In this document: positions 25,301 through 58,794 of the stretch, one piece after another | How the letters are laid out: each line of letters opens with the position of its first letter | How positions within the stretch are numbered: position 1 is the first letter of the stretch | DNA from: Xestospongia bergquistia | Lineage: Eukaryota > Porifera > Demospongiae > Haplosclerida > Petrosiidae | DNA length: 64,000 bases | Direction of reading: 5' to 3' | Assembly: GCA_963965975.1 (NCBI GenBank) | Contig: OZ014412.1 | Coordinates: 9,901,849-9,965,848 of the forward strand | Made by a program: the position numbers and the translations under genes | The notes under the pieces: generated by a model | Seen by the model: only the letters and a program-made list of their open reading frames with translations | The model's database searches: none | Told to the model about the DNA's origin: nothing

Positions 25301-25887
25301 ACTCAGTCCATTCTTGTCATATTCACTGAGTCCTATCTCTTCTTCACTTTTCTTGCTAGTATTTTTGGTACATCTCTTCCTCCCTCTAACAATTATAATT
25401 AACTCAAAAATAGTTCAATATATACATTACACATACTGGAAATTTGAGAATTTTTGGGTAATGTCTTTGATTGTTCTAGTGTAGTTTCTAAAATGGCAAG
25501 CCACTAATCAAGGGTTAACTATAATATAATATAACATACCATTATCACTCAGTCCATTCATGTCATATTCACTGAGTCCTATCTCTTCTTCACTTTTCTT
25601 GCTAGTATTTTTGGTACATCTCTTCCTCCCTCTAACAATTATAATTAACTCAAAAATAGTTCAATATATACATTACACATACTGGAAATTTGAGAATTTT
25701 TGGGTAATGTCTTTGATTGTTCTAGTGTAGTTTCTAAAATGGCAAGCCACTAATCAACGGTTTATTATAATATAATATAACATACCATTATCACTGAGTC
25801 CATTCTTGTCATATTCACTGAGTCCTATCTCTTCTTCCCTTCTCTTGCTAGTATTTCTGGTAGATTTACATGCTGTAGCGTCTAAAG
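22340..25887 (-). repeat. Tandem array of ~246-bp units, each carrying an exon-like segment
   Basis: I located 14 units by the shared segment GTCCATTC(T/A)TGTCA, at 22591, 22837, 23080, 23328, 23574, 23828, 24074, 24317, 24563, 24815, 25058, 25306, 25552 and 25798, plus a diverged terminal unit at ~22340. Spacings are 243-254 nt, mode 246. Read on the minus strand, a typical unit has TTAGAG, then a 90-nt reading frame containing RKRCTKNTSKKSEEEIGLSE and ending in SDN, then a GTATGT donor. The remaining ~156 nt is A/T-rich and intron-like. The unit nearest 25880 is the end of the transposase relic at 25784-26068, so the array appears to have been amplified from that exon and its intron. Units starting 23080, 24563 and 25058 have an in-frame TGA at the same codon. 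Confidence 0.9.
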
Positions 25888-28177: not shown

Positions 28178-31100
28178 ATGGCGTCTCTGACTTTCTGGAG
28201 GCGCACTGGCCCTTCAAAGAAGGAGCCAAGTCCTGTTGACATCCCAAAACACGCTAAAATTGGTAAGTATGTATATTATACATTTATTAGTCGCATGTCG
28301 TATTCGTATGACTAAATTTAAGCTACAATATCCACTGATGTACATGTTAATATTTTTAGAAGTGAAGCTGAGATCTAAGACTAAAGATCTACTCGTTGTT
28401 TATGGGATTGCCAGCCTTCCACAACATCCACCACTCATTCCTTGGTGTTGTTTAAAATTTGAAGAAAAAACTCTACCACCAGAGGATTATCATATGGTGT
28501 ATCACAAGTTGAGTGAATCAAAAGGTCAAACTGTTGAATCTATTGTTCGGAAATATTCTAACCAAGTTAATATGAAAGCTCTTTTGGTTACAGCTAATAT
28601 TGAACAAAGAAAGTTGGATACATTGACAATTACATGTTCATTTACAGTAGTCATTATTCCTAAAATGTACAAACATGATATAGCTGAATATTTACAAAGT
28701 GCAGATGAATCCTTAGAGGCAACAATAGCTCCATTGTATAGTGAAAAAAGAGATGGTGAGATGTTTAAGATACCAGTAATTCATTTCAATTGTTTAAATA
28801 AAACAAGTAACGTTAATGTTTCCACAATAAACAGCAACAATTGATGAGAAACAGATCATTTTTGTTATGTATGTTAACCTTGTCTTTTTATTATAAATGT
28901 GCTTCAGTAACACAGCGTTGTTGTGACCTGACCCATCCATGGAAAGTTAGTCATGTTATGAAAGCAATTGAACTTTGTGTTCAGCTCTATGTTTTGAACT
29001 TTTTTAATGTCTGAAGTTATTTATTTGAACTTATATATATATATGATAGTTTAAAGAATACCTTATCATTATCATACGTAGATCATTAAACTTAAGACAT
29101 CTTATAACAGCAATATTCCTTTCAATTATTTAGTTCTGGATGCATTCCTTCCAAAGGCATCAACTGAAGTTACTGCTTTTAGATCAATAATGCGCAATTT
29201 CATTCAAGACAAAAAATATATTTCTTTAGTTTATGGACCTGATAAAGAGTATCTTGACAAGAGATTTCTGAAATGGGTGTTGGAAGCAATTAATATTCTT
29301 CAAAGATTGGTTAGCAAAGTATTATATAAATTTGATATTTTTAGAACAAAAGTGTGAACTGATATTGTAGAGATGATTATCTAAATTTACTTGTTATTAC
29401 AATACATTACCACAAGTTTCAGTATTTTGATAACCATTATCTTTGGGAGTGATAAAGATTTAATCAATAGTTTGAAAGTTGTTGTGCATGTGAATACATC
29501 CATGTGGGATAATTTGGTTTGGATAACCAGACCATACATTTATATGATTTTATATCAATATGACAGAAAATGATACAATCAAAGTAGCAGCAATGACTAC
29601 TATATCATCTGTTCATAATAGCACACAGATACATTAATACAAATACCTATAGCTACACAACAAAGCACTGTTTATATGGATGATGACATTGTCATTGCTA
29701 CTACATTATTTGTGTTGTTGGAGCTATAATTATAAGAAAATCTTTATATATTTTCAAAAAGCAGAGCCATTAATTACATCAGTCTATATCAATAAATTCT
29801 CCTCACTAATGCACTGGTTATTTTGATTATACTGTCTCAACTGTCTTAACGTTTTGCCCATTGCTTTGACTTTTAAACTCAAAATGTTGGCAATGGCTTC
29901 AAACTGGTGTAAAGTCAAGATTGCTGCCTACAAAAAAGACAATTCAGTTCTAGGACTACCTTAAAAAACAGAAAATCTCATTTCATCATTATAATATTAA
30001 TTGACCTTTTGTTTAAGCTAAACTGCTCTGCATGCAATTTTTGTATCCTTGTTCAGCTCAAATAATAATAATAATAATAATTAAATAACCACAATTTAAA
30101 GCATGACTGGTCATACCTGTTATATTGTGGCTCTTGTTATATATGCTAATTAAATTCTTGATTGAGAAATGTGTCTGTACTTAATATATGAGGTTAATTA
30201 TATTAGAACTTTTCCTTTGCAACAACTACATGAATGACCATAACCTTAAACTATCATAATGTGAATGTTTATAAATTTTTGAACAGTATTTAAAATTACT
30301 ATGATTTTGTTCATACAGGAAGAAACTGAAATATGTATAGGTTGGTGGGATGTTCTACGAGAAGTTATGGAGCTACTACTACAAGACACTTACATTGACA
30401 CAATGTTTATTCGAGATTTCCCCTTCTATTTTAATTTTGCCTATTCTATATACAAGTAAACTGGTTTTGGGGATTATTTTTTTAATTTTTTGACAATGTG
30501 TCTTTTGTAGACACTCATCGAAGTCCACACTTTCAAAGGAGTTGAATGAATTTATTGAAAGTTGTGTCATGCACATTTCAAGACTTCCAGTTTCAATGAT
30601 AGTGGAAACATTATCCAATTTTATTGAAATGTAAGTCACTTTCTTCATTTACATATATTGTATTTCAAAATTGTGTGTTATATGTTGTACATGATTATCA
30701 AAGGTAATGAAAAGCATACCACTACTTACACAACCATACAGCTGTAGCCAATAAGTACTAGTAGTCATTCTGCCTGGCAAGTTGTGCATGCCAGGCAGTC
30801 CTTTAATTATTTTGCTCCACAGGCTGACAGATATGTTTGTATGTTCAATTGCTTATGATTTTATTTTGTTGTATGCAACAATTGAAAGCAAAGGATGAAA
30901 ACAAACCATATCCTTTAATCACCAACACACACATATATCAACAAATGAACCGCAAGCATTATGATGATAAGTGTGAGTGATTGTGTTCAAATCATCTTGC
31001 TAGCTTGCTTCTCTCTATAAATTTCTAGTATTAAATAGCTATTAGTCTTTTATAGATACTGCAGCATATTTTCCTATCTTGTAGCTCTATTCAGTGTTAC

Positions 31101-34100
31101 ACTGTAAAGTCAAAATTTTACAAAACTAGTATAGGATGTTTTAAGTATAGTCTTGTTTTTTGTTACCTCAAGGGCTATGACAACAAGCTTACCTAATTTT
31201 AATTTTTACTTACCTTTGAGAATGTCTCTGTTGTTATGACTATTTCATTATTAGCATTGCATGCATTGTAAAAATTGATTGGTTCAATTTGGTTGGTTTA
31301 ACCAATACATTGCTATATAAGCTGACATATTTTATGCAAAATATAACCATAACACTGTTTTGATTGCTGATGTACTACTGGTGATGTAGTTACTAGTTAG
31401 GACTAATAACGATTTTTATTGGTATATTATATGGATGTATGCAAACCAAATAATGTTCATGAATGGATTAAAAGTTTAAAACAACTTACCATAACCTTAT
31501 CTCTTTGAAAAGCATTGTATTAGCATATATAAAATGAAATACAGTAACATTGGAAATCCATGTTATTTACTATTGCAGAAATATTTGATTTTCATAAAAA
31601 GATTATGGTAGCAATATCTGGTGTTACTATTTTTATTTTTTATATCCCAGTACAATTCTTTTAAGATTAATATGAAGGCAGATTGAAATCACTAAAAATT
31701 CATAGTACCAATCATTTTACCTTCTAATAATAAAAACTACTATTTAATTCTATAGAAATTATAGTAATAAAAACGGTATTAAGTTTACTTTTTGCAGCAA
31801 ACAATTTTGCAACAATCTGAATAACCATACATTTATATATTTATTTTTAGGGGAGACTTTGAATTAGTATTTGGTGGTCTTCAAACAAAACGGACTATCT
31901 TTGAGTTCACAGCTAAATCATTCCTAGCAGTGTGCAATGAATATTGTAGAGTTAATTCTCATGCAAAATTTACTCACATTAAATTGGTCTCTGGTGGGTT
32001 ACATTTCATTAGAAATTTAATTGGTTTTTTTAAATAGCATCAATTGCTATGAAATTATTTAGCTTATGTTCAAAGACAAAAAAGACTGAGACACTTTGGC
32101 AAAAAACAATTATTGATGTAAGTGTAAACTAAATACATCAATAAGTACAATTTTAATATATTGAAGTTCTAAATGTTGATAGTGCTTTTAAATTGTCATG
32201 GTATATTGTTAGCCATGTGTGTGTGTACTGGTAAATACGTTTAAAATGCATGCATAATTTCTATTTTTGTAAGTGCCCTATTCAACATGTATCTTAATAA
32301 GTATAACATGGAATACAAAGTGCTGTTTTCTTAACATTTCCTCTATGGCTCAGCATTACAAGTCTAATGGTTTACGTCAGGCTGATTTAAATGGCTTAAA
32401 AAGTGGACTAGAGGCAATGACACTAATACTTGTTGATCATCCCAACCTAATGCTCAGCTGGAAAGATGTCTCTTGTATATTTACTTCTGAAGTTCATTCA
32501 ATAACTATTTTAGGGTAAGCTACATTATTATATCAACCTAGCATATTATAATATTATTTAGAAATTTCATTTCTGTTTGTGACTACTATATTACAAGAGG
32601 TAATGCTGATGAAAGTTTTTGCAGTGACTATCTAAAACCTGTCACTTTGTTTTATTTGTCAAAAGTTAATAAACTTGAACAAATAAGCTCTGATAAGAGT
32701 GAAACAATACAGGAAGTAAGTATGATTTATATTGTATCATTTCATTCTGATTTCTGACTCGGTGATAATATAATTAAAACAAAATCTCAATTGTTTAGGG
32801 GTTGTATTTTCTTTCCTTTTTAATAAATTTAATTGATGAACATCAGTGGTCACTTTTGAATTTTGAAATTATTTTTGAGCAGTGGTTGACTATTCTTGTT
32901 AATGTCATAGACCTTTCACTCTCAAACTGTATACAATGTATCAATCTATTGCTTAATCCAGTTGAACTAATTCCATGGGAAGGTTATCACGAGTATTTGA
33001 ATGGACAGGTTTGTTATGAATACTATTGTAATAAGATACTATATTATTTGTAGCTTGAAATTAAATTAAAGAACCATTGTCATAAAATGTCTGTTGAAAA
33101 TTTCATTGCAGTTGTTGTTAATGGTAGTTTTGGAAAATCAAAGGTCAGTCAGTCTATCAGTGATAAAGAGCATGAAATTGGATTAGTTTTTCTAAGTTTG
33201 TCATCTATGTATATAATATTAATGTGTTACAATTTTATACTATTTTCATGTGTAGATAATAGACACCTTTCTTGGGACATTTTCTGCTATTATGCCCCAA
33301 ACCATTGTTATCACAAAAGAACCATATAAGAGTTTATTTATCCTTGCAACTACTCAGTAAGTCTATGCGTGCATTTTTGAAGGATATGTTGACATCATGC
33401 AATTATACATCTGTAATGTTTTAGTTTAACTCAGCCTAAGCATCAAGAGGATTTGTTGTCATTTTTCAAAGTGGTCATGGAATGTTATAGGAGAACTAAT
33501 CGATCACTAGAGTTTCTTACAGATCTCTTTGAACTTGATATTCATCCTTCAGAGAGCTTTGAAATTAAGTTCTCTGTCATTTTGAAGGAATTCATTACAG
33601 ATCATAAACTCCAGACAGCAATACATAATGACATTGTTCTTTTAATAGTGAGTTTTGCATAAATATAAGCTTTTTTATGGTACATTTCCTCAGAGCAAGT
33701 TATCCCTAACTGAAAGTTCATTTGTATGGATGACTGTCAAAACTATGATACAGGTACTATTGAATATAGTACTATGAATATTGTCTATGTACTACAATTT
33801 TGCAATGATTTATATACTGTAATTTTGCACTTGAATTTAGCCCACTCAAAAGATTATATATATGTAGCTATAAAAGATTGGCATTGTTTTGAGGCAAATA
33901 ATATAACCTTGGGACAAAGCATAAAGTTTAGCTGCTTCCAACTATTAGAAGCATGCCAAGCAATCCTATGATTGTCTTAGGCTATCTTTCATATATCAAG
34001 CAATGTCTACTACTATTGTTGAATGGTGTTGATGCAACATACAAAATTGCCATGTTATTGAATTTTATTTGCTCATAATTTGTCATGAGCATTAAAATGC

Positions 34101-37100: not shown

Positions 37101-40100
37101 ATTTTGTTAAAACTATACTAATTATTTATTTAATAGGAACTCTCTAAATGTCATCAAGCTGTTAGAAATACCATCAATGAAGGACCAGATTGTGAACATC
37201 CTGCCAAAATAATTGGGTGTTTTTTGAGCAGACTTGTCAATCAACCTGAATTAAAGGCTTGTCTTTCTGATGCTGTTCTACCTCAAAAGGGAAATCATAG
37301 AGAAGATCCAATTACAATCTCTTTAATTTCAGCCTTTGATTATTCTAATTTAGACTTGATTCGATTAATATACTGGAGTTTTGACGAAAGATTTCCACTG
37401 TTTTGTCAGCTGTTTAGATGTTCATCAAATACATGTAAAGAAGACATTGAGTTATTTTTTGACAGAATTGATTATTTTCCTCAACCAAAATATCTTGTAC
37501 TGGGAATCAATTTAATTAGAAATGACTTGCAACAAGTGAGTTAGTCTTTATGTGATATTATATATCATTGCATTCCAATACTTTGAATAGGTTTTCTTAA
37601 AACGATTCTCTAAATTGAAATCAAATGTTCACAGAAGTTCTGATGACTTCAGAACAATAGACATCATTGTCGTTGAGTACTCTCCTTCATTGTTTCGACA
37701 CATACCATGGATTGCTACCACAACCAAAGTGGTAAATTGTTACTTGACTAATTGATTATTTTTACTGATTTAATTTAGGACAAAAATAAACTACCTGATT
37801 TTACTAATATATATAATCATTTGATGGAACAAAAAATTGGTAAAAAATTTAAGCGATTTCAAGTTGTGTATGGACTTCCAGGTAAAGAGAATAAAGAAAT
37901 GAATTAATTTGTACAATAGAAAAAAGTTGATTACCTATTATATACAATAATTGAAGCTGTTATTATGAAATCTTTTATTAAGACCAGGATTATATGTTTT
38001 TTTGTTGAAGCCATGTCAAGTGTACTATTTATTGATTATTCTATTAATAAAAAATAGATGATTTTAAACATTAATTTGATTTTTTACAAGAGGGGCTCTA
38101 TAAATTTTGTTATATTTGTTTTTTAGGTAGTGGTAAAACACATTACATCAAGAATTGTCTTGACAGTGACTTTCATAAAACATCAAAAATAATTAGTATC
38201 AATGAAACCTTTAACAAGACTGAAGTTGTTCAACGATTAATACAACTTAGTTTGACCACATATGATTTGGCACTCTTTTTGAATATCAATTTAGTGTGGC
38301 CTCAAGTAAACTTTCTCATTTTAAAATATACTTTTGATTACATTTGTAGAAGTGGGATAGAGAAGCTTATAAGAAAATATTTTACAAACTTGTAGATGAT
38401 GTAAACTGGTTCTTCTTTGATTACTTCATACTTGGCTATGTTGAAGTTCCTGAGAGTACAAGTGCTGACTCAACTTCTCCTGGTTGTCTTTCACTACCTT
38501 TGGTAGCTGGAGTTTCCATGTCTGTTTATGTTGAAGTTAGTTATTAAATAATAATTATGTAGCTGTTATATAAAAGAAATATTAAAATTACAATATGTAT
38601 ATTTGCATTGTTTTAGTTTTAAAAAGGACAAATAAATCAGTGCCTCTGATCTACCTTAAGCCCATAATTAATTGCATCTGCTAATTTAGCAATTTTATCC
38701 ATTCAATTTAATGTTTATTAATTTTAGCAAATATCAAAGTCACACCCAATTCCATCATGAGGTCTAACTTTTATTTCTACTAATTTTAGTGACCATTATT
38801 ACAGTAGTTGCTAAAATTACTACATACAATTAAAAGGATGCTTATAGTAAATGCCAATTACATCACGACTGAGTATTTTTGCCACAATGGTTGTATATTA
38901 ATAAGGGTGACTGATCAAGCTTCTTTGTTCACGGAACCTACTCTTGAGCAAATGTTATAGCATTCATCAACTTCATTTAAATAATTATATGCTACTTATG
39001 ATAATGGTTAATTCATTTTATTTAGCAAGTACATAGTCACTTCCAGTCAATGCATATATATATAGTTTTAATTCATTGAATTTAAAAGTCACATACGCAA
39101 TTATAAGAATATTATTTGATACTTCTATGTAATACTTGCTATAGAAATAAATAAAAATTTGCTCACAAAGTATTCTAAACATTAATTGATTTAATGTAAT
39201 TACAAATGTTATTTGTAGGCTCCTTACTGGAAAGTTGCCAATGATAGTTATATAACAGACGAAATACGCCTTGATCAATCATATGAAAATTTTAAAGATC
39301 TCTTTCCTGTCTTTGCTTTGCTTGGCAAGAAGATTACTCCTCAAATATGGTTTGATGTAAAAAATAATCCTGGTGTGCAGCTAGTTTGTAAATATATTGT
39401 TGCTTACAGACAAAAAAGGCTGGATTACATTATTAAAAGTATGTTCACTCTGAAAATAGTTAATAAAATATAATGTATTTACTATCTGTTTTGATATGCT
39501 TATAGAATAATGCTTATGGAATATTGTATGTACAAGTTATAGCCCAATCATGTGAAGTGTGTATGGCAGACAGTGATGTAAACAAGCAATAGGGCTGAAA
39601 GCTGTTTATGTATTGGCATTGGTTGTGGGGTTATAAGCTTTTTGTGGCATGATAAAATTCAAAGTTGTTAATATTTCATTAAATTTATACAATTTGTCTC
39701 CACATTGAGCCACATTATATCTTATTTCATCTTTAGATGCCAGAGACCCTCCAATTGAAATTAATAAAATTATGAAGGATATTCCTCCCAATGAGTGTCA
39801 GACAATACTCTATGAAACTTTTCCAATGGTTGAAGTTAGAGGGAAAAAAATTATGGAGACTTTGTATTTGAGGTGGGTACCATTGACATAATAAACTGTA
39901 ATGTTTCTTGTCATTTTTTACTTACATAAGCATATTTTGTGCAGCAAAGTTTTTTCTGTATAGATGAAGTAATGATATCATTTGAACTGTATTTGAAATA
40001 TGATAAATTGACTGAAAGGAACAATAAAGTCCATTGCATTCTTTATATTTAGTTACATGGAAAGACGATGCATATTTCTAGAGAATTGTCCCCATCTACG

Positions 40101-43100
40101 TTACAATGAAGGTTACCGAGAAACTATAAGAAACAATGAGGGAAGAGTGATTGCAGAGAGAAACACAGCAAAAATGAGGTCCACATTGTTTGCTATTATG
40201 CAGGAAGAAGTTGGAAATTTTTGTAAGCAGTCTTTGTCATGGTTGTCTGATGTTCATAAACAGGTTTGCTTATAGCTTAAAATTACTTGCATTTTCTGTG
40301 CAAAATATATAATAATCAAAATGGTCCAAATTGCCACAACTATGTCAAGTCATTCATGATGCCATAATCTATTACAATATCCATTATCAAAACTTTATTT
40401 GTAAAGCAATTGTACAGTCACACTTATAGAGTCATTGAAACACCTCCAAAATTTATATTCCATAAAATTAATTACAGTGTATTTAGATACGCTTTTTCAT
40501 TTAGCTGATATATGACTTCAATAGTAGTGGAAGTACATTCAGATTTCTCTGCACTTATCCAGAACGTCTGCCACCAGATGAATTTTTAAAACTTCAAGCA
40601 ATTGGAATTGATATAGGAACACTCAAGTATGTTTAATTTTACTTGAAGAGATACCATTTTTTAATTTCAATATTTTAGAGAGCGACTGAGCACTCAACTA
40701 CTTCATGATTATCTTTCTGCTGCTCTTAATGTTGACAAGGATCAAGAAACCAAGGAAATTAAACTGATAAAAGAAAAGAAATTTGTTCTCACAAGAGATT
40801 TTGTTCAAAAAATGTTGAATATTCATGAGAGAAAAGAATGTGGTATTCCAGTGGTCATTGAAGGAGAGACTGGTGTTGGAAAGAGTTTTCTTCTTGAGTT
40901 ACTTGCTGATCTTTGGAATGAATCTTGGAACCAACAATTAAAAAAACAGAGGCAAAACGTTAAAGTAATAATTTTATTTTATATTTTCTTGGTGGAATCA
41001 TTGTTATCATAGGAATTTCTTCTTCAAAAAATTTCCCTCTTGAAGGCTCGAGATTCAACAACTAACAAATTGCTGAATACAACACTTTCTAAGTTACAAA
41101 CAGAAAATGAGAAAGTCTCTCTTAATGATTTACAACAAATTTTGAGACTACATGATCCCACGAAACCTTCTAAATGGTTGTTTGAAATATTTAGGGAAAA
41201 GATTGAAGTTGACTGTTATGATCCAGTGATATCAAGTTTAGTATTACCAAGTGATTCCACTTACAAAGGTGAATTTAGTGATTTATTGCAGCAAATGCAA
41301 CAAGTTTGTAGTATGGAGGTAATATCTATAATTTTTTATGTGAAGATTTCTATTCATACTACTTATTAGACGATGGCTGAAGTGTTAAATGGTATTCTCT
41401 ATGGATGCCTAAAGAGCACTTTCTATAAACTAAGTATTCATACTGGTAAGTTTGACTCTTCACGCTTGGGTAAACATAGCCATAGTCATCTCTTCCATTT
41501 CTAAACAAATTTATTAAAAATGGCATGTTGAACTAGGTGTCATTTTGTGATTTGTGTGGATTTTGTGTTATACTTTAGCCATGAAGCCTGAAGAAATCAG
41601 AATGTTTTTTCGTGATGTTAGTCAACATGCCAACTCTTTATTAACAAGATACAATAACTACTTAGAACACAGAAGGAGAGTAACCTTTAAAGAATATCAG
41701 AAACCTATTGTCACTGTAAGTAGACTTGTTTTCTACTCTAGAATTTTTTGTCTACTCTTTGTAAATTCACATAATTTTTGATAATACTTTCAGGTATTTT
41801 TGGATGAAATAAATACTTGTTCCTGTCCAGGATATTTAAAAGAAATCATTACTGATGGAGTCGCTGGCATAAGAGTAAGTTCTTAAATAATACTCTTTGT
41901 ATTTCTTTTATTGGTATGAAGTTAATAGTGTGGAAATACTCACTCACTTTGTCTAATGTTTGGACTAGCTCAATTATATAATGTTCTTTTATTACAATTT
42001 CATTTGCTAAGATAAATAGACAATAGCTGAAGCCATCTATCCATACATTTGGTTTGTGTGAAGTTTCTGAATAGCTATGGTGTGCATGGGCAACGTTTAT
42101 AGTACTTACTTTGTGTGTGTTTGTATGTGTCTGTCTCTCTGTCTGTCTATTCCAAAAGCAATATGATAAAGTTTATCACACAAAAATTACTGTCTGTACA
42201 TTATAGAATTTTCCACTTTTTCACCATAGGAATTTTCCTAAAATTGTTTTGTTTTCAAGTTTTGGCAATTTAAATTACCTCATTCTGATAAGATCTTGTC
42301 CATGCCTATTTGATGGATAGTTTTATAACTATTAATTGTCACACAAACATTTTCCTTATATGTGTTAGTTGATTTGGTTGAGAATTTTTTCTTATCTGCT
42401 TGCAAGTTTTGGCTTTGTGAAGTTCTTTCTTTTGACATTTGAAATGATTTATTTTCTGTTGCAACTGCAAATGACAAATCCTTAAAACCTGCTGACAAAA
42501 TTGTTTATTCTACATCCATTATGGCTAACCTATTGTCAATTGCCACAGTTGTGGTATAGTTTCACACATAACTTGCATATTTTCATAGATATTACAATAT
42601 TTTATCAGTTTGAAACAACCTTCATTATCTATTCATTTAGCAAGTTCTCATGCTGTTGCAATGATCATTGCCACAGCATAAGAACTTTTTGAATAAAATA
42701 TGAGGCTAACTAATGTTATGCTTGTTCTGTACTCTAGTGCTTTTCATGTTAATTGTGTCTGCAATCCCTAGCTCTATGACTACATATTAATTTACAAAAT
42801 GGTTCACATTTCACTAATTCAAATATGAATCTCTTAATTGTCTATTATAGGGACAAAAAATCTCTTCAAATATATTCATTGTTGCTGCTTGTAATCCTCA
42901 TCGAGGTAACAGTTTGGCCTCTATAGAAAAGAAATCTGATGAGAACTGGTTTAGAAGCTCATATTATGTCCAGTCACTTCCTCCAACTCTTGAACTTATT
43001 ATGTGGGACTATGGACAATTACAAGAGAGCCATGAAAAAGAGTATATAAGAGAAAAACTCATTCTCACTTATAATGAGTTGTCTACTCTTGAATACACTT

Positions 43101-46100: not shown

Positions 46101-49100
46101 GCAATTTTTAAGCACAGTCATGTCTGATTTACTATACGTTAATATGACAATCAATTTATTCGTATATTCTCACAGTCATGTTTGAAATTAGCTTTTGAAC
46201 TCAACTTATTGCATTTGTAAACGAAACTGTGTGGAAAAGTATCAGCAGGTTGAAATACAAAATTATAGCACTCCAATGCATACTTTTTTACTACTCACTC
46301 TATCTCTACTATCATAAACTTAAGAAGTATCTGTTTTCAGTATGAATGCTTAGCCATAAATGTGGTGTGGGTCATATAATGTTAGTATGTTTTGTTAAGT
46401 AGATGATAGATATTATTACTTTTACAGACTGCTTGTATACACATGACTATCATTTTGTAGGGTGAATGTTCCAAGTTTTCAAGTACAGTCCAGTACATAT
46501 TTAGTTCTGTTACAATTGATGATTCAGTGAAAAAATTTCTAAATACAGCCAAACTTTTTGATTTGACAGAATATGCAAAACAAGCCATGAAATTTATGAA
46601 AGAAAGTAGCATTGATTTTTTTATTGAACCAGTTTGTGCCACAATGGATGACCTTCCAATTGTTGTATTAAGAAAATTAGTTGTTGCATACCTTTGCAGA
46701 CAACTTATTCAACTAATGACTCCTGAAGCATTAGTTCTTCATAGTGAACATCTTCATGAATATTATATTCATTTTTATCTTCGACATCAACACCACTTTT
46801 CACTTGGACAGCTAATTCAAGAAGAAAATGATGCTCTGGGAAAATTGTAAGTTGGTTTATATTTTGTTTATATATACTTTTATGGAAATTCACTTCCTAT
46901 TTGCATTAACAACAATGCATACTTGTATTGATAGTAATTAAATCATACTTTATCAAGTAATATTCTGTGATTAAATCATATTATTACATTTGTTTGTAGA
47001 ACTAGTCCTCCAGATTTTATAATTAAAAAGTACCTCTGTTATACACGCACATCTTATGCCATACTTGAGATAATTCATCCACACTATTGCTGGCAATCGC
47101 AATTCAAAATAACAGAAGAGGAGCGTACTAAGATGAAAGAATTGTTTCTAATTGATACACAATTATTGTATACTTACGTTATTACCAGTGCCACTAGCCA
47201 ACAGAATATTAACCACATATTAAAACAGTTTTTTGACTCTGAGCAATCTGAAGTACTGGTGTTAGTTGCTGACATGAATGAACTGAGCAAAGACTGCATT
47301 AGTCATGTCCGACTATTAATAGAGGAGAAGGAAGCTCGATCTAAGATCAGAGCCAACAAGCTTATTTATGTTCTTCTACACTTTTCTTCCAACATGTTTT
47401 ATACCCATTGTTATCCATCAATATTCTTAAATGGTTGGCAACATATATACTTTGATACTATTGGTGAAGCTAAAGCAGATTCTCATATTAATATACAAAA
47501 GTGGCTAACATATTGTTTACTTCAACAAAAAGGAAGTAGTGTTGAGCACATCACCAGTCAGACAGAGCCATTCTTTGTCACTAAATCTATTATGGTTACA
47601 TGGCTACATAACTTACTACCAAATGTATCGATTAGTATTGGTATTCAAAAGACTAAGGACATAGATAAACTTTGTGGAAACAAGACAGTATGTGACTGTT
47701 GGTACCAGCTACTTTTTGGTTTCAATGATATGATCAGCGATGTGATAATAAAACGATTTTCTTATTTCTGGCAACAGGATACCACTAACAAGCTCTCACA
47801 ACAAGCTGCTAGGTATTCTATGAAATATCATTCTAGTCGTACATTATCCAACACCATCAAAACAACTGTTGAGTCTAGTTTTAAGGACATTGTACTGTAC
47901 CTACTCTCCATTATTAACCACACGATGGCAATACATACCATTCTTAAATGCAATGAAGATAGCACTAATTGTGTTGTAACTTTGTTCTGTCAATTACTCT
48001 CCATTCTGCCAATACCCAAATCAATGGAAGAAATCAAACTACAACTTCATGAGTTTAATCAACAACGCAAACATGGAGGGAGTGATATTTCATCACCAAG
48101 ATTCCCATTTTTTATTTCTGTTTTCCAGTCTATGGAAACAATTCTAAATAAAGCATTAAATCTTGTTATTAGTACAGTGTCAATAGATGATAACCAACAG
48201 AATAACAGGTCTGATCGTGTAAGGCTCCATGGGATTACTGATACTATAGCAAAAAATGAGACTGATGCAGTAATTAACAAAATGACAGAAATATTTAATG
48301 AGCCTATATTTGTAAGTATATTAAAAAGATTATCCATAGTTTTATTTTCCATTAAATGTCAGTCTTCTACAATGCACAAATGACATAGAAATAATAATTA
48401 TTATACATGTATATTATTTTTGTACATTTTTTAATTAACAATATATCTTTAATAGGAGGGAGATGATCACTATGCCAGTATTCGTTTGGCCATTCAGTTT
48501 ATGAAAAAACATCATATTATCTGGGATGCCTACTTTCAAGATACACTGTCCAAACAAATGGTGTCCAGAGATGTGGGGGTTTTCTCCACACATTTTTTGA
48601 CACAACAGTTAATGAATATTGAGTCAGGTAAGACAAATACTATAAGTAACTGAAACATCAGCAGAAGACTTATAACTGTATTGTAGTGCATGACTTATAA
48701 AAATTATTATTGATCAATTTTGCTTTTTTTAACCTAGCTCGTTAATTATTGTTTCAATTAACAGATGATATGTTTGTGAAGATGGCCCATTTACATTACC
48801 AACTAAGAGTATACTTGTTGGATTCCAATTCATTATCAATTCTAAGACTACTTGATGAATGTGCCTCAAGAATTACAACCTGTACTGTTCCTACAGATCT
48901 TAAACTCCAAGATGATACCACTCTTTTCTGTGTTGTCATTGACATGATTTATACCTCACTGCTTAGCATCTGTGTACCTGAGACACCTTCAAATTTATTT
49001 TCAGAAATAAAGAATCTGTTGTTTTTATATTATCGAATGGTATGTGTTGCAATTGGTAAACTGTGTTTTGTTGTAATCTTATTTATTTTTACAGATACAT

Positions 49101-52100
49101 TTAATCAAATTACCACTTCAATCACTTGAGAAAATTTCACTTTTTCAGAAGAATAAATTAAGTTTTATAGATATTTCATTTCATATCTATGAGTTGATGT
49201 CTACAGAAGAAAAAGGTGTCTTTCAGACATCATTTGAGGACTTTGTCTATAAACTTTCTAAAAATCTTAACAATGAACTTCTCTCAGTAAGTAAAAGTAA
49301 ATTAAGGCATAAGTATTTGAAGTCTAAGCATTTAAATTTTAGACATTGTTATTTATATAATATATATATAGATAGATAGATAGATATAGATATAATATTT
49401 TTTTATATCTTGATAAACTACTTCTTTATTTTAGGACACTCATCTCAAGGTCAACATACTTGTGAATACTGTTGCAGGTATTTCTTTCAATGATGGTGAC
49501 AGCCTACATCTTCTCTTGTCAAAAATATGTCCATCGGAGTTTCATTCCATTCTAGAGCACATCATACAACATTATGTACAATACTTGCACAATTTCATAT
49601 CCCATGAAGAAGCCAGGTGGATCCATCAAGTTATAAATCTGTCAATGTCCAGTCATAAGGGTGCAGTAGTGAGCTCTTTTGGTCAATTCATTGTCAAGTA
49701 TCATTTTCAATGTTTGTTAGTTGACAATGTTCAAACTACTACATTACCTACTATACTTAGTGAACAAACTCACCCAAATCCTTTACTACTTTTTAATGAC
49801 AAGGTGATTAAGTATAGCCACTCACATTATAGTTATTATATGACTTCTTTATTTTACAGATACGAATAGCATTGAATGAACTGATTGAGTCACTCCATGA
49901 AGCTAACAATGCAATATACAGTCCTACATTTCATCGAAACAGTTCTAAAATGCAAAAACAGTATCAACATGTAAGTAATATCATATTTTTCAGTCATTGG
50001 TGTCTTAATGTCATTAATTGCGTCTGGTCACTCTTTCATAGACTGTACTAAAAGAGCCAATATGTGATGCATATTTTGAACTCACTCTAAACAAACTTCA
50101 AGCAAGAGAACATAACTTATTAGAGCTAGTGTCTTTTTATAAAGCAGTAAGTTACTTATTTATTAATTTCTAGCTGATTTATGCCTATACTGCATGCACT
50201 TTAAAATAAAACTACAACCTATTAAAACTAAGTGACAGTATTGTCTGTATTTTTATTAGATTTGTGACTGTCAATACAAAATGAAAGTATTGCTCATTGA
50301 AAAAGAAGCTGTAATTCATGTTGCTATTACATCTCTTACAAAAAAACTTTTGCTTAATGAAGCAGAACGAGTGGAGGTACAATGTGAAATTAGAATGTCA
50401 TATGCAATTTATTTTTTTATAGTTGGCTGAAATTGATGTTGAACTGAACATAATTTTAAATGACAGCAATGCAGTTAGCAAACTAAACACCAGCATTAAT
50501 AGTAATGCAATAATTTTTGTTATGAGGTAAAACAAATAAATGTCTATTTCTTGATATTACTTTAATTTAAGGATACAACTATAGTCAATTTAAACCATGT
50601 CATATACAAGAACCTCTCTATTAAAAAGACATTGTTTGATTCCGAAGAATCTTCTTTTGTATAGAGATTTTGTTATAATCATTGCAAAATGTTGTAGTTA
50701 AATTTATGCCAATTTGAGAATAATACACACTTCTTACACAGAAGGATGTGAACATGAAAACGCAATAGGAAACTATCACAAAAATATTATGACAAATATA
50801 GCTCTAATTACTATCTTTATATACAGCAGTTGAAAAACTTAGAAATGCATTGCCAATAGGAGTAGGAAAATTTCAGGTCTTTTCACATTTCTCTTTCGAT
50901 TGTATTATTAACATGCTTTATTCTGTTTTCCATATTAGATTACTTCAAGCCTGTAAAAGTGAACAGATTGTACATACTATGATGGTAAATCAGTTCATAT
51001 CTCTTTTAAATGTTTTTGAATGTCTTCGTCCTGTCAATGCAACTATCACTCAGGAGGTAAATTCCTATGATTTTCTATGCATTAAAATTTATTGTGATTT
51101 CTTTTTAGATGAGAGAATTACCATCTAAACTTACTTCAAAGTTTCTACTGTTTTTAGATGACAATTTCCACGCTAGATATAGCATTTTTTATAAAGTTCA
51201 TCAATCAGTTGTAGAAATTATTCGTACGAGTGCTAATAAAGGAGTTGATACATTAATGGCAACTGCTCTCAAATGGTAAGTATATTGAATTTGTTATGAA
51301 CAACCAATGTACATTTGTTAGTGTATATAATTATAGTTTTTATCCAAAATTATTAACAATTATGTACACTGCACAGTTTAAATTACCAATTAAGGATATA
51401 TTATCTGTATATGCTTTATCATGGTAAAGATGACCACATTATTATCTTGTATTATTTTGACGATTATATTATGTGTGTATTATACACTAATGACCTCATA
51501 TTATTATATTGTTATCTTGTATTGTTTTGGCAGTTATGTCAAAAAACATAACAAGAATCCATTGGAAATGATGAAGTGGACCTTTAACATGTCAATGTTT
51601 ATCAGTATCTATTATAAAGTCTTTGTCAAGAAAGATAAGGTTTGTGAATTATATTAACATCTAATGTTGTAATATAATGTACATATTTTATGAAACATAC
51701 TGTACTTTGTTGCAAACTACTTCAATCTACTTTTGTTTTGTTATCATCCATTTTTAGCAAAGGGGATCAAGTGTGATTTCTGATGTTTTGTCAATAATGG
51801 TATCTCAATATGTCAGTGCAAGATATTTAAGATATCTACAATGGCTTGCTGCTCCCCATGCATTTAAAGTTCCAAATGCTTCAATTGAAAAATTAAGACA
51901 TTTCTTTGTTAGAGGTAGGGATATGATTATGTACTAGAATATCAAACTGAAATTGTAGTCTAATTTAAGCAAAGTTTTAGAGGAGTAAAACTATTCCTAT
52001 TTTCTTTAGATGAGCATAATAGAACACTTGTTCATTGTCTATTGGAATTGGTTGCTGTTGTGTTAGGTAGTCCTGAACACTCATCTCATCTGTGGACACA

Positions 52101-55100
52101 TCTTATTATGCCTGATAAGATAAATATGAGTTTTGTTCCTGGATCTTTAGTAAGTGTTGATGTTTTCACTAGCACTCTTAGTATTTGTAGTAAAATATAT
52201 CAATGAATTAAAGGATTGTTTTTGGCTAAATCCTTGCAAACATTTTACTTAATTAGAATAAGGTTATAAAAAATTATGTTATTTTTTAAAATGATAACAG
52301 TGTCATATATTTTAATGTATCCGTGCACCTTCCATTTATTATAAATTACATACAAACAAATAAAGGATCATTGTTCATATTGTAAACTATTCTGCAGATT
52401 TTGACGAGTTTTGTTCCTGATAGTCCTCAGCAATATAAACAGATAATGAGTATAAGTAATAACCATCTTTACTACACATCACGTCATGGTTTAAATTGGC
52501 AGTCTCTTCTACTTAATCAATGGATGAGTTATGGAATGCTTTGTGCATGCATAGTGATTAATCCAGAAATTATAAAGAAAATGTCTTTTCTTCATAATAC
52601 CTCCAACATTGATTATTGTTTGTCTAAAGTCACTATGTTGTGGGATAAACTTCAATTTGACTGTAACCTTACAAGGGAAGATAGAGACTCCTTAGTATTT
52701 TTATGTATACAAAACTTTTATGAAGTAAGCCTAATGGGATCTAATATTGTGATTAAATTGTCATGTTAAGGTTTTGTCTAAAAATGCATTGGAGGAAAGT
52801 TGGTCAAAACTTTCAAGAGAAGAGCGTTTATCTGATCAATCTGAGCAACCACATTTTTTGACTGATGAATCTGATATCATTGAGAAACAACATGACAAGC
52901 AACAAGAGTACTCTGAGGAACAGAAATCATGTGCTCTTTGTGAATATGAGAGAATCCTACATACTGATGTATTTCTAACTGCATGGAAATTATTGAAGGT
53001 AAAAAGCATTTAAAAATTGGTGGGTTAATTTATGCTATGATTAATAATTATAATTGTACTACATTGAATTAAAAAATAATATGAGCAGGAATCATAACTA
53101 ATTTAAATCAGAATGTGCTCATAATAGTTACCTTATAGAGTGTTTAGTTTAAGTTTGTTCTAGTAGTAAAATTATTACTACACCAGATTAAGTATTGAAT
53201 TATTACATAAACCCAATTACATTTAGCTTGTAGACAAACAAAGAGTGGTAATCTATTATTTCAATTTAACAGATGATTTCTCATACTTTTTTAGTCACAA
53301 AAGAAGTTTGAGAACTTGGGAAATACACTGAGTGAACATATGAGGTAAGAAATTTTTGTAACACTCTTTTTCTTGGACTGTAACAATCATTCTATGTCTG
53401 ATAGGGAATTATGTAATACAGTTCCTCACTTGAACATACAGAGCAGAACACCTCTGACATCATTTCTGCTCACTATTCTTTCCTCAACTAATCTTCACAA
53501 CAAAGAGTGTCATCTCTTTGTACTCTATCAATTTGTCCTAAGAAGACCAGTATTGAATATTGGAGCAGAAATACTGCCAGTTTTAATAGAGTTTTATAAC
53601 TGGATCCATACCCATTTAGCTCATAAAGTGACTGTTGAAATTGCCAAGCAAACAACTACCAAATGTATTCTCGTATCAGTTCTCAGACAGTTCTTTCCTG
53701 ATCAACATCAAGAGAGACTAGACCAACTATGTCATATCATAGGTTAGTTCTAAAATATCTTCCTTTAATTTTGAATGTTTGCCCTTTCTATTGAATAGAG
53801 CAATTCAAAGTTATGAGAGGTCTTGTTTTTAATTACACTGTACCTGTCATTGATGACAATACAATTTTCTATGACTTATTGTTCACTAAAGATGGACAAA
53901 ATATTCTCTTTAATGTGATCACTAATATTGTAAGTTAAGGAAAAGAGTAATCTCTCATGCTCTAAATAATAATACCTTTTCTAGGTTGAAATGTACCATA
54001 AATTTCTTATGGATGTCCGTGAACATTGTTCAGCAAGACAACATCTAATGGAGTATTTTAGTAGTTGTGATATTAAGATACCTCTCTCTGAGATTACAAA
54101 GCAGACCTGTGCCTTTGGCACTGCCAAAAGGTATGAAAGTAAGCTAACAGGAATATACTTTCTATTAGGTTATTTTATTGTATTCTATTCTTTTGTTATG
54201 TGTATTCTTTGCTAAAATAGAAAATATTTTAATATTAACACTTCAGATATGATAGTGTGGATGATATTAGTGCTATTGTGATGAAGTATCACTCTATTAA
54301 TGAAAGTGCTAAGAAATGGACCAATACAATACATGATCAGACAATACTGGATGATTGTGTTCCTGAGGTATGAAGATCAATGAAATCTATTATTATAAAG
54401 TTATTTTATATTTGTTTAGACTTTTTATTTAGATGGAATACAAGATACAATCATTCAAAGTTATATAGCACATAAACAATTCATTGAAAGAGAAAGGTTT
54501 TGGAAAGAATTTGTATTTAATCAGTTTTCTCCTTGTTATCAAGTTCCACAGAATTTGTAAGTAAACTAATTTACTATAGTATATAGATGTGATTTATGTT
54601 CATTCGTCTGTTTCTACTCTTTAAGACTTTACACATCTACATATGGATATGATGAGACTGTTGAACAACTTAAAGAATATCCAGATCTTATAGTGAGTAG
54701 TTCATTATCTATTGTGTTATCTCCCTATCCTAGTTGAACCCTTTAAAATTGTTATTTATTCTATTAGGAGGAAAGTATTACTAATCTTGGATTTGATGAG
54801 CTAACATTCACTTTTCACTCATTAAATTATGACAGTCTTGTGTGTGTCTGTGGTGGACTTTGTGTCATCTTGAAAATGTTACTTCAGGTAAGAAGTTAGT
54901 ATTACAATATAAAATAATGCATATGATAAACTTTAGACTTATTACATTGCTTTTAATTGTACGGATTATTAGAGACATACAAATCCTTACCTGCCAACCT
55001 TTACTCAGCAATTCTTTTTGCTTGATTGATAAAAGTAAAGCAGCTATATTTTGATTCATTTTGTTTGCTGGTGATATATAGCATATTTGTTATAAAACTT

Positions 55101-58100
55101 GTTAATATGAAGAGTAGAAATAAGACTCAACTATTGTATAAAGTTAATACACACATTACTTAGCTTTTCAGACATCTAGCTTCTAACCAGGACAGTTTCA
55201 TTAAACCCCTAGATATTTAAAGTAGACTAGTTTAACTGTATTTATATAATACTGTATGTTGTTGCCAAATATGTTGTTATTGTTTTGATAGTTACTTGTC
55301 TGTGGTTACTGACTTCATAATTGTGGCTATAGTGTTATACTATCATCATTACTTTAGAAAGTAGTTACATATGGAGTGGAAATGTTATCAAGTCTAACTG
55401 TAGAAGAATTTCTAAAAAAGCATTACAACAATGACAAAGGTGACATTCTTGATGAAGTGGGTATTATGCCCCTTTCACCTACTAATCTAAGAAATGGGTG
55501 AGTGTTATAGTTGGTAATCAAAAGCATTGTTCTGTGTAATTGTTATTTTGGTTCTTCTGTCAGCAAGTTTAAAGTTTCTTGATTCTATAGATAAAATCAA
55601 TGTTAATTTCAATAATGTATTACTATGTAAAATGTAAATGCCTAATAATAGTCAGAAGTTTTGCAGAATTGTCTGGGATGTGCAGAGTGTTAGGCAGTCT
55701 TATAATTGTTTAGGATCTTGTGGTATTTATATGATATGTATGTCCACTTTTTAATTTATTATTATATTTGATTTTTAAAATAACAAATAAAATGAAACCA
55801 CATCCTTAAACTGCAAATGCATATCAATGAATTTATTAAATCGCGAGTAGTGCCCTGATAGGTATGACTGATAAAGCTCAAAGTTTCTTGTTTGCTAGTT
55901 TCTCCACCTATATTTTTAGCATTCTATAACTGTAGTCTTTCACAGATGTTGCTTTAATTATACAATCCTTGTAGTTGTAGTCAATGTTTCCCTGTAAGTC
56001 TGTATCTTTCAAAAGAATTAAAAGATGATTTTTTTCAATTATAATTTCGTTTTAATTAATAATTAAGACAAGGACAGTGTTGTTAGTTATCAATATTTCT
56101 TGCATTTATTCAAATCTTTGTTTTCATTTTAATATTATAGATTGGATCCAAGTCAATATAGCTATATTTGTAATATGCCAATCAAAGGAATTGTTGCTTT
56201 GTCAGATAAATTTCGTGAATGGATAAAGATTGGTTTCTATGACTTCTGTCACCTTTATCATACCATGAAAATTCCACTTGATAATAAAGATATCAAAGAA
56301 TTAATTAGAAGACAAGGTAATTAAATATATAAACTTATTAAGTATTATCAGCTGCTACACAATAGAAGTAATGATATTTCATTAATATACCAATGTAGTG
56401 AGTAATGACTATCATAACAAAATATATTATGAACTCTATCGTTGTACTTAACATTCTTTAATGATAAATAACAGTGATGATTGGCTACCAAATTAGTTTA
56501 AATATTGTTCTATTTTTAGATGATGACAAAGTACTTAAAAGTTGTATTCATCTCTTGTTTAATTATGAGCAGTGTTTTTCACTTGAAACTAAAAGTGATG
56601 AAAAGGTAAACCATTTATTTTAATTATTATTATTGATACTTACCTTTGATAACTTTAATTGAGTAATTTGACTATCACAAATTCAAAAAAATGATTTATT
56701 ATTTTAATTCATTATTGTCCTAGTACACACAAATATTCATCAATACAGTACATATTGCTTTTATAGACAATGACTTTTTCCTTATTGTTATAGATGATAA
56801 AGGTAATTAATGAAGAAATGATTGATTCCAAAGACAAGTTTACACTTCAAGTTCTTCATTTACCTATTCATTGTTATGTTGATCTTCAAATTGAACTCAG
56901 AAAGTTAGTAATGGCATCAATATTCTTACCATTAGATAAAGCTGCTTTTGCCATATTTGGATTATACAAGCAATGATATATTGTAGTTTATTGGAAAATC
57001 TCACAATAAATGTTTTATACTAATATTAGTGGTTTATGGACTATTCCACAGTCAATATATTTTGTTTATCATTTTTAAAATTAATGTGGTTCACTTGGAC
57101 GATGTTAGGTATTATGACAAGTTGATTTTATCACAGTTAAATAATGTGCAGTATTAGAGGCTTTGAAAACTAAAAGACTTACAATAAGGCTGAAGTATTA
57201 AGTAAAATAGACTTTTAACTATCATCAACATCAAATCTGGTTTCACTTAAATATAGACATATCTTATCAAATTGCTGAACTAAAGTTGGGCCAAATCTGA
57301 GTGGCTTAGAATTTCATACTTGTAATAAATAAACACACTTATAAGCTATATATTCTGATTATATTGAATTATTGAAATGATATAGGTGACAAAATAAGTA
57401 TCTCTTTTGTATATTTAGGAGATTAATGGAACTGTCAACACAAGAAGAAGAAAAACAGCATAACGAAAGTGCTACACAGAGAATGGGTGATATTGATATG
57501 AGGTATATTATTACATTATTACAACATATTATACCATTATTATAATAATAGTGAACTACCATCTGATAGTGATGTACCTAGTCCAGATATGAGTAAGTTA
57601 GATGATGTTAATGATGTAGAGGAAAAAGATGGGAAATGTACTACCAGTATTGTCCCTAGTAATGATCCACCTCTAGAAGATACACAAGGTAAATAAAATG
57701 TAATGACTGGCTTAAATATTATTCCAAATTAAAGTCTGCTAGCCCACATTAAAGCTAGTAGGCTTAATTTCAGCTTGCTTAGTCCACTTTATAAAATATA
57801 TATTGTCGACTTGATCTCAAAAGATAAGATTTGAGGAGAGCTAAGAACTTATTTTTTGACCTTTGCTTTGAAGAGTACTATGGTAGTTTAGCCTAAGCTA
57901 GCTAGTTACTGACAGTTTAAAATACTCTTTTCTTTGTAAATCGTATTGATTCCATGGCAAGCACATATATAAGATTAGTTAGTCTGTTTTTAAAATTACA
58001 ATTGTTCATTTGTATACCAAATCAAAGATGCTTTTTCGTTATGTATTATTCCTTGAATTAAATACCATTTTTATCCTAGATGACAGCTTAGCACAAGAGG

Positions 58101-58794
58101 CTTCCAAATTATCTGATGAAGATGTTGCAGAATTCCTTGAGAAGATTGGATTAAAGAGCAGTGCTGATATAGTCAGAGAAAATAATTATACAGGCCGCAT
58201 TATCTATCCCAATATAAATGATGATGAGTGTTTGAAAGACTTGGATATGACAACACCAATTGATAGACTACGATTTCGTGTTCTTTTTAAAAGAGAGTTA
58301 TTAGGAACCATTTCAATGGCTGCCAGTGCATTTCCACCAAATAAAATAGCTGAAGTTTGTCATAGTGTCAATTCATTAAAGATCTATGCTCAGGTAACAT
58401 TATGCCTCTACACATGTAGTTATGATAATACATACATGTATTGACTACACATCTACATAGTGAAAGTGAAATAGTTATTGTAATGATAAGATAATAACTA
58501 CAATAGGGGTTCATTTCTATATGTATACTGAAGGTGAAAAATAATAACTTTTGAAGTAACAACTAGTTGTGTACATCAACAAGCTAATTATCATGCTTTG
58601 TCAGAATGAAATTAGATGATGTTATTTTTTATATTATCTTTTGTATTTAGCTGTTTGAAGACAAAGAGATTGATGGAGAGATGCTTTTACAAGCTGATCA
58701 AAGTGTTTTTGATGAGTTAGGTATTAATCCACTTCGCAAGACTGCACTGTTGAATAAGTGTGAAGAAAGGGGACTTGAAAAGTCAAGTCTCTGA
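28178..58794 (+). CDS. RNF213/mysterin-like giant AAA+ protein with SAM tail, copy B (complete, 72 exons)
   Basis: I traced 72 exons with consistent GT-AG borders and phases, from ATG at 28178 to TGA at 58792-58794: 16,065 nt, about 5,354 residues. Vertebrate RNF213 has ~5,200. Domain order by residue: N-terminal arm (1-1690), AAA2 P-loop GLPGSGKTH (~1723), AAA3 P-loop GETGVGKS (~2139) and Walker B FLDEINTC (~2347), AAA4 P-loop GPPGSSKT (~2618) and Walker B DEAGLAEDS (~2694), AAA5/6 region (~2720-3250), a large helical C-terminal region (~3255-5150), an acidic linker, and SAM (~5204-5275) plus a SAM-like segment (~5290-5345). RING and RZ-finger zinc ligands are not seen, so RING- or RZ-type ubiquitin-ligase activity is not predicted. 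ATP-driven remodelling with SAM-mediated assembly is an inference. The start codon is preceded by AAACGGC and the first exon has no other candidate. Confidence 0.92.
29310..30318 (+). other. Copy B intron 3
   Basis: About 1 kb of A/T-rich sequence with no recognisable exon. It contains an AAT trinucleotide microsatellite at about 30061-30081. Confidence 0.6.
30631..31850 (+). repeat. Copy B intron 5 containing a dispersed repeat
   Basis: From about 30760 to 31085 this 1.2-kb intron carries a dispersed repeat seen elsewhere in the window (see 44855-45145). Shared landmarks are the CCTGGCA...TGCCAGG inverted pair, ATCCTTTAA, TCTTGCTAGCTTGC and CTATTAGTCTT. The remainder is A/T-rich and featureless. 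Confidence 0.5.
37779..39438 (+). other. Copy B exons 23-26: AAA2 region with a P-loop
   Basis: Exons: 37779-37881, 38127-38305, 38350-38535, 39219-39438. The Walker A motif GLPGSGKTH is split by an intron between its first G-L-P and the G-S-G-K-T. I do not find an obvious acidic Walker B partner, only a hydrophobic WFFFDYFIL segment in exon 25. ATP binding without strong hydrolysis is therefore plausible, as proposed for AAA2 in the family. The exon 39219-39438 is homologous to the first exon visible in copy A. Confidence 0.82.
39737..41874 (+). other. Copy B exons 27-34: AAA3 domain
   Basis: Exons: 39737-39872, 40053-40263, 40505-40626, 40679-40964, 41013-41318, 41370-41445, 41579-41715, 41794-41874. 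The P-loop GETGVGKS is at 40863-40886, with Ser replacing the Thr of copy A. Walker B FLDEINTC opens exon 34. Exon 28 has a 21-nt in-frame addition relative to copy A, encoding a short Arg/Tyr-rich insert. Confidence 0.88.
41875..42850 (+). other. Copy B intron between AAA3 and AAA4 exons
   Basis: A 976-nt intron homologous to copy A 3111-4420 but about 330 nt shorter. A TGTGTCTGTCTCTCTGTCTGTC stretch around 42124 is shared with copy A. No exon is recognised. Confidence 0.65.
42851..43891 (+). other. Copy B exon 35: AAA4 ATPase
   Basis: A 1,041-nt exon, the same length and phase as copy A exon 10. The P-loop GPPGSSKT is at 43586-43609 and Walker B VVLMDEAGLAEDS near the 3' end. It is one of the most similar exons between the paralogues, including long stretches of identical nucleotides around 43480-43800. 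That suggests strong constraint or gene conversion. Confidence 0.92.
44091..46846 (+). other. Copy B exons 36-40: post-AAA4 and AAA5/AAA6 region
   Basis: Exons: 44091-44474, 44556-44792, 45185-45547, 45673-45909, 46461-46846. Conserved FVGITNKFLDAAKSNRA and PFLNRFEKYAL motifs are present and no P-loop is seen. The intron 44793-45184 is 392 nt against 51 nt in copy A because of a repeat insertion. The intron before exon 40 is also expanded (551 nt against 101 nt). Confidence 0.86.
44855..45145 (+). repeat. Dispersed intronic repeat (SINE- or MITE-like)
   Basis: This ~290-bp insertion is absent from the copy A intron. It shares ordered landmarks with the repeat in copy B intron 5 (about 30760-31085) and more weakly with 16560-16790 and 55790-56010. 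The landmarks are an ACATCCTTTAA block, CTTGCTAGCTT, a CAGCATTCTATAG(T/C)TA block and a CTTCCAC(A/T)GA block. A CCTGGTGTGC...GCATGCTAGG inverted pair lies at its 3' side. No coding capacity is seen. Confidence 0.5.
47000..48311 (+). other. Copy B exon 41: large exon after the AAA ring
   Basis: 1,312 nt, entered in phase 2 after a normal TAG acceptor at 46997-46999. It includes the family block YVLLHFSSNMFYTHCYPS and extends to GTAAGT at 48312. It is 12 nt longer than copy A exon 16: 6 nt from the acceptor shift and 6 nt from an internal in-frame difference near 47095. Confidence 0.88.
48456..56903 (+). other. Copy B exons 42-68: E3-shell-like helical region without RING or RZ finger
   Basis: Exons: 48456-48627, 48765-49039, 49095-49286, 49435-49803, 49860-49970, 50042-50146, 50260-50376, 50423-50526, 50939-51056, 51109-51275, 51534-51639, 51758-51914, 52010-52149, 52398-52724, 52771-52998, 53295-53344, 53405-53742, 53799-53929, 53985-54130, 54247-54367, 54420-54556, 54626-54692, 54768-54887, 55358-55497, 56141-56316, 56520-56605, 56794-56903. 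Exon sizes match copy A except 54420-54556 (137 against 136 nt). No zinc-binding cysteine cluster is present. Reading past the donor at 56904 gives an alternative end at 56976. Confidence 0.85.
49360..49398. repeat. GATA/TA microsatellite in a copy B intron
   Basis: Runs of TATATA followed by (GATA)n-like sequence lie in the intron between exons 44 and 45. They are absent from the copy A intron. Confidence 0.8.
57419..58794 (+). other. Copy B exons 69-72: linker, SAM domain and second SAM-like segment
   Basis: Exons: 57419-57502, 57552-57688, 58080-58393, 58651-58794. The acidic linker has PSPDMSKLDD. The SAM domain has EDVAEFLEKIGLKSSADIV, YTGRIIY and a closing helix with IDRLRFRVLFKREL. 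The second segment has YAQLFEDKEIDGEMLLQADQ and DELGINPLRK, matching helices 2-5 of a SAM fold without a clear first helix. SAM domains mediate self-association or docking with other SAM proteins. This tail is not part of vertebrate RNF213. Confidence 0.88.

Follow-up and report, generated by a model that had tools for sequence, protein, structure and literature searches.

Vertebrate RNF213 (mysterin) is a giant single-chain protein built on an AAA core with Walker motifs in AAA3 and AAA4 and a P-loop in AAA2. Its catalytic cysteine is reported to reside in the RZ finger, deletion of which abolishes activity, and its C-terminal domain is the reported docking site of the E2, the ubiquitin-conjugating enzyme (PMC12075652). 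On the Toxoplasma vacuole, the RNF213 coat is reported to require AAA activity and not the RZ, oligomerisation of the coat being one possibility offered by the authors; the same source gives ZNFX1 as the other RZ-finger family, the domain being named after it and RNF213 (PMC11549300). Expansion of RNF213 is already known from symbiotic bivalves (PMC9993606). An RZ-less, SAM-tailed or kinase-tailed RNF213 is unreported in the titles and abstract openings among the literature matches listed, in which RNF213 and kinase fusions were not searched for jointly. Here we describe copy B, a gene of the sponge Xestospongia bergquistia on the + strand of a 64,000-nucleotide stretch of contig OZ014412.1 (C2:9901849-9965848; hereafter the window). 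We are highly confident that its predicted architecture is that of an RNF213-derived ATPase class which lacks the RZ and ends in a SAM tail.

Copy B shares with vertebrate RNF213 the giant single-chain AAA core with the above motifs and, probably, the order of the E3 (ubiquitin ligase) scaffold and C-terminal domain. It differs in having a short linker in place of the RZ, no RING, a tail of two SAM domains, and membership of a multi-copy tandem family.

Gene model and AAA core of copy B

A comparative gene finder based on codon usage, splice signals and synonymous/non-synonymous patterns against the tandem copies, with the number of genes left free, predicted copy B to be a single gene at 28178-58794 with 78 exons encoding 5,509 amino acids (aa). 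This independent method recovered the start and stop of the original prediction, which a model had made from the sequence of the window, and also its single continuous gene; the 72 exons and ~5,354 aa of that prediction were not upheld. The first settings of the gene finder gave micro-exons and were dropped. Exons 12-18 have good per-codon scores and exons 3-11 weak ones, and the N-terminus (exons 1-18, aa 1-857, 28178-33753) is therefore the least certain part of the model. As to the N-arm and CBM20 of RNF213, no sequence match was found among solved structures for aa 1-1850 and no Pfam match for aa 1-1057.

The P-loops of AAA2, AAA3 and AAA4 and the Walker B motifs of AAA3 and AAA4 were found intact in a motif scan of the spliced protein, as had been predicted for the motifs of these three modules. 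The AAA2 P-loop GLPGSGKT (aa 1840) spans exons 28-29 (37779-38305), the AAA3 Walker A GETGVGKS (aa 2256) is in exon 35 (40679-40964), the AAA3 Walker B FLDEIN (aa 2464) is in exon 39 (41794-41874), and a single exon at 42851-43891 carries both GPPGSSKT (aa 2735) and VVLMDEAGL of AAA4. The AAA3 and AAA4 assignments also have the support of the RNF213 match: in a phmmer search of solved structures aa 1801-3400 match RNF213 chains at an expect value (E) of 7e-51, and all nine matches at E 0.01 are RNF213.

Self-comparison of the window revealed two tandem copies, A (to ~19.6 kb) and B, with 79-91% identity over aligned blocks, and further tandem copies are located in C2:9,691,849-9,891,848. Copy A (101-19502, + strand; 5' end outside the window) has the same architecture as B. 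The ratio of non-synonymous to synonymous substitution (dN/dS) of B against copies A, P3 and P5, with exons 1-18 left out and copy A compared from exon 31 onward, is 0.33-0.34 overall and 0.21-0.27 in the AAA exons. Over these codons A, P3 and P5 have no stops relative to B save the shared terminal stop and one in exon 78 of copy A.

RZ finger, RING and the E3 half

In aa 3351-5509 of copy B, SAM alone scored above the Pfam cut-offs, with no RING and no RZ. Ligand patterns of RING or RZ based on CxxC were absent from the three + frames of 42851-58794, introns included, while a loose N-x-H-x-Y/F pattern occurs at four places in the same frames. A finger split across frames would escape this search but would be caught by a scan of the spliced protein. 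In that scan the only dense Cys/His stretch (aa 1616-1675) lies upstream of the AAA core, and past AAA4 there is one isolated CxxC, at aa 4698. These three scans agree with the earlier claim that there is no zinc-ligand cluster between the AAA ring and the C-terminus. A missed exon for RING or RZ, set beforehand as the finding that would overturn the prediction, was not detected from AAA4 to the stop, and this candidate was dropped after the 248-base intron at 52150-52397 had also been read in three frames. As positive controls, a piece of locus L015 scores PF20173 (RZ) at E 8.6e-22, and a search with the RZ-bearing L038 reached the C-terminus of RNF213 (E 6e-58). RZ and RING were also not detected in the parts read of a C14 copy (L039) and a C12 copy (L041).

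The position of the missing finger could be compared directly in the five of seven RZ copies for which landmarks on both sides were modelled (L014 and L038 lack them). All five have 81 residues between these fixed landmarks, including the finger with its Cys, His, Cys and CxxC. Copies B, A and P5 have 30 residues there, the C12 and C14 copies have 36, and in none of them is there a ligand set. The 30-aa linker of copy B is in exons 59-60 (51981-52724). One copy counts against a uniform absence of the finger: the P3 model has 63 residues between the landmarks, the 33 extra ones including five Cys at the RZ site. We take these as probable intron read-through because five other RZ-less rows are without them; the equivalent of the insert in copy B hits a stop. 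The stretch NNHLYYTSRHG in exon 60 was considered as a decayed RZ finger and dropped, as diverged copies align it with the post-RZ linker.

RING was not found between AAA4 and RZ in L040 (C12:922500-929500), the one of the seven RZ copies read there. As this RZ copy is also without a detectable RING, RING does not separate the two classes, and its proposed loss in exchange for the SAM tail was not supported; RZ alone is the predicted feature that distinguishes them. The RZ-bearing paralogues, on C12 and C15, share the AAA family with copy B but have the RZ; L038 ends at the C-terminal domain, and no SAM was found downstream of these loci.

When profiles of the RZ-less and RZ copies were compared, three matches appeared in the same order in both: AAA5/6 (E 2e-10), a weak match (E 0.11) and the post-RZ/C-terminal domain (E 0.0075), the last rising to E 8.8e-4 when hhalign was confined to the C-terminal part. 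The score of this C-terminal alignment was 36.4, versus 30.1 for the best of 60 column shuffles and 19.8 for the reversed profile. By a family-built profile, exons 60-69 of copy B (52398-54887) are collinear with the post-RZ/C-terminal domain of RNF213. On this moderate evidence, the E3 scaffold and C-terminal domain are likely kept in the RZ-less copies, and the SAMs appear to have been added behind these parts, which appear to remain. The idea that a SAM tail had been swapped for the ligase modules stands as to the absence of RZ and the presence of the tail; the profile comparisons do not favour replacement of the whole E3 module.

Several results weigh against this retention. The hhalign comparison confined to the RZ neighbourhood was not significant (E 0.11), and a shallower profile gave E 0.43, which improved once the C12 copy was added. 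No match to the PDB was found at E 10 with a four-sequence profile of the RZ-less C-terminal half, nor any sequence match, to RNF213 or to another solved structure, with phmmer for aa 3351-5509 of copy B. The AlphaFold model of exon 46 was poor (predicted local distance difference test, pLDDT, 44.6), and Foldseek returned no match to it at E <=0.001, RNF213 being at rank 18 with E 1.5.

The E3 half bears on one of the two main rival explanations, namely that the RZ-less copies with SAM act as regulatory subunits, themselves inactive, which join RZ-bearing RNF213 in mixed assemblies and aim or damp the ligase. Seven RZ-bearing loci are present in the same genome, and the C-terminal domain, the E2 docking site according to the report cited above (PMC12075652), appears to be kept. 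However, copy B also keeps its ATPase motifs and has the strongest constraint in its AAA exons, neither of which a passive subunit need show, and the search gave no SAM downstream of any of the seven RZ-bearing loci. We consider this rival unlikely. A separate partner ligase is possible for the RZ-less class, given the RZ-bearing paralogues in the same genome.

The SAM tail and its distribution

Together, the two SAMs of copy B score 40.5 bits (PF07647) and 31.2 bits (PF00536), versus cut-offs of 20.5 and 23. SAM1 alone scores 33.2 bits (PF07647); SAM2 alone is just under both cut-offs (PF00536, 22.5 versus 23 bits, E 1.5e-4). Exon 77 (58080-58393) encodes SAM1 and the first helices of SAM2, and exon 78 (58651-58794) the remainder of SAM2 and the stop. 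The counterpart on C14 holds both SAMs in one exon. The protein thus ends as originally described, in a SAM and a SAM-like segment, the latter being another SAM, which an intron divides.

Exons 70-76 (55358-57688) form a partly acidic bridge between the C-terminal domain and the SAMs. The gene finder incurred a cost of 26.4 score units when a split was forced before the SAM exons, 18.2 after the C-terminal domain and 14.2 between AAA3 and AAA4. When new genes carried no penalty, the model broke into nine pieces, and the SAM exons stayed with preceding sequence in the last of them (56477-58794, six exons). We also searched the genome (146.5 Mb, 21 contigs) and merged 45 matches to the AAA4 exon into 37 loci, downstream of which RZ and SAM matches were placed; as the search was made exon by exon and the best candidates alone were scored, the resulting counts are lower bounds. 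A same-strand SAM was found 10-17 kb past the AAA4 exon in five C2 loci, one C4 locus, nine C12 loci and three C14 loci. These are 18 of the 30 RZ-less loci, versus 0.2 expected under a random spread of ~95 SAM sites, a number estimated from the genome SAM searches. The linkage is beyond chance.

These data bear on whether the SAM exons might be a separate small gene trailing each RNF213 copy. The evidence for the join consists of splice signals and phase, and a forced two-exon gene at 58028-58794 is possible. Against it are the recurrence of the same-strand SAM at 18 loci on four contigs, the cost of the split, which is higher than that within the AAA core, and the constraint on the preceding exons 70-76 (dN/dS 0.32-0.35 against three copies). 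We give a separate gene hardly any credence; that the SAM exons are part of the copy B gene, by predicted joins, is well supported.

The 37 loci comprise seven with RZ and no SAM, 18 with SAM and no RZ, 12 with neither and none with both (Fisher p 0.008, which overstates independence as the loci are related through duplication). The 18 loci indicate that RZ-less, SAM-tailed RNF213 derivatives are a distinct class, and the architecture, being common to copies A, B and these loci, is older than the A/B duplication, as had been proposed. Some observations weigh against this classification. Seven of the 12 loci with neither domain also lack the kinase tail described below (one at C2:9991616, one on C14, three on C7 and two on C2 past 10.1 Mb). 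Constraint on the SAM exons is among the weakest measured (dN/dS 0.42-0.57), and copy A has a stop late in exon 78, behind the SAM2 core; its SAM exons (~18798-19115 and 19368-19502, + strand) contain a frame break, and the stop is a few residues before that of B.

The array copy at C2:9991616 has an E3-scaffold exon (9995776) and no SAM match downstream; C7:7375617-7438090 contains three AAA4-like loci in which no RZ, SAM or known tail was found; and at C2:9827675-9831462, behind P3, the SAM-tail exons occur once more, on their own.

The number of SAMs varies, with one SAM match per C12 locus and two at two of the three C14 loci, and among solved structures the C14 pair is nearest to the liprin-beta tandem SAM (E 7.5e-7). 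The partners of SAM domains are diverse, and the tandem SAMs of liprins are docking modules. Both the variable number and the closeness in sequence to liprins would suit the second main rival, in which the tail is an address tag for membrane, RNA or receptor docking and not a polymeriser. No result speaks directly against an address tag, and it is a close competitor, although we regard it as somewhat unlikely.

Kinase-tailed sister copies and candidate outputs

Five copies of the C2 array (C2:9715593, 9738741, 9761998, 9785414 and 9839420) are collinear with copy B as far as exon 46 and from there carry a coiled coil and a TKL kinase where copy B has the E3 scaffold, C-terminal domain and SAMs. 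These five are among the 12 loci with neither RZ nor SAM. Four of the five are open and diverge from B at residue 3555-3592, within exon 46 (47000-48311). In these four, the RNF213 part, coiled coil and kinase are in one open frame of 544-545 aa (C2:9718968-9720602, 9742023-9743657, 9765327-9766964 and 9788705-9790339, within L020-L027); that the middle segment is a coiled coil is our reading. The first kinase frame scores PF00069 at E 2.9e-36, and its best solved relatives are TKL-type, e.g., CTR1 and IRAK4, with MLK and RIPK3 lower. All four kinases keep the VAAK lysine and DYG, and by translation the HRD motif as well. The fifth copy is frame-broken, as is a relic of a kinase-tailed RNF213 copy in the window behind copy A (20904-22109, + strand). 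The original interpretation, correct as to RZ and SAM, was incomplete in that it missed these sisters.

Broken copies such as the fifth copy and the relic, along with the lack of a SAM match at C2:9991616 and the copy A stop, would be expected in a decaying ligase family in which RZ was lost, the giant genes are becoming pseudogenes and the SAM tail is incidental. Such decay is difficult to reconcile with the dN/dS of ~0.34 among B, A, P3 and P5, with aligned codons that are free of stops outside exon 78 over the exons compared, and with a layout common to diverged loci. We think it improbable.

The explanation that we favor overall, with about even confidence, is that copy B belongs to a class of RZ-less, RNF213-derived ATPases that are not ligases and have a SAM output. 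Such proteins would be ATP-driven, RNF213-like scaffolds with no ubiquitin transfer of their own. Since the SAM class has the Walker features but not the ligase residue, we infer a machine for ATP-switched assembly or recruitment, a mechanism that we put forward tentatively. Binding and hydrolysis of ATP in AAA3/AAA4 would switch the protein to an assembling state, as reported for the coats of vertebrate RNF213, and the SAM pair would then polymerise or recruit a SAM partner. The SAM would stand in for the assembly and recruitment role of ubiquitin-driven amplification in vertebrates. The SAM class may have an immune role, antimicrobial defence having been the original proposal.

In the array sisters, the TKL kinase may be an alternative output of a reused ancestral core, and because these sisters carry it we consider that the core has probably been reused with different effectors. 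This suggests one immune motor fitted with different outputs. It is possible, though we would not yet call it probable, that the AAA ring of RNF213 serves generally as an immune motor and has at least three outputs in this genome: ubiquitin through RZ, assembly or recruitment through SAM, and phospho-signalling through the TKL kinase. If true, this would be an NLR-like modular system on a dynein-related ATPase, in which the SAM/kinase tail switch occurs inside one exon of a tandem array. STAND/NLR proteins and SAMD9/SAMD9L likewise combine an ATPase core with interchangeable or SAM outputs; their ATPase class is unrelated and the likeness is one of design alone. RNF213 has been studied as a ubiquitin ligase, and an RZ-less lineage that carries SAM domains or a kinase and has its ATPase under purifying selection would be a natural experiment in which the motor can be told apart from the ligase. 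With such a lineage one could test whether RNF213 assembles on its targets through the AAA ring and not through ubiquitin; it also suggests a route by which an ancestral immune motor diversified.

A cluster of ~25-30 SAM matches is located at C1:8558296-8686055, where a long frame whose end resembles a coiled coil lies behind the SAM at L042; the SAM exons of this cluster were examined as a possible partner, with no result. Two further RZ fingers on C14 (C14:4382528, L010, and C14:4399891, L009) lie in frames of ~1,870 aa, which we take to be ZNFX1-like; ZNFX1 is without the RNF213 AAA ring. Within the window, a satellite-like array lies between copies A and B (22354-25862; 246-bp unit, 14.2 copies, 93% matches), and an open frame with DUF4371 (E 1.3e-15), which is hAT-transposase-like, is present at 63282-63998.

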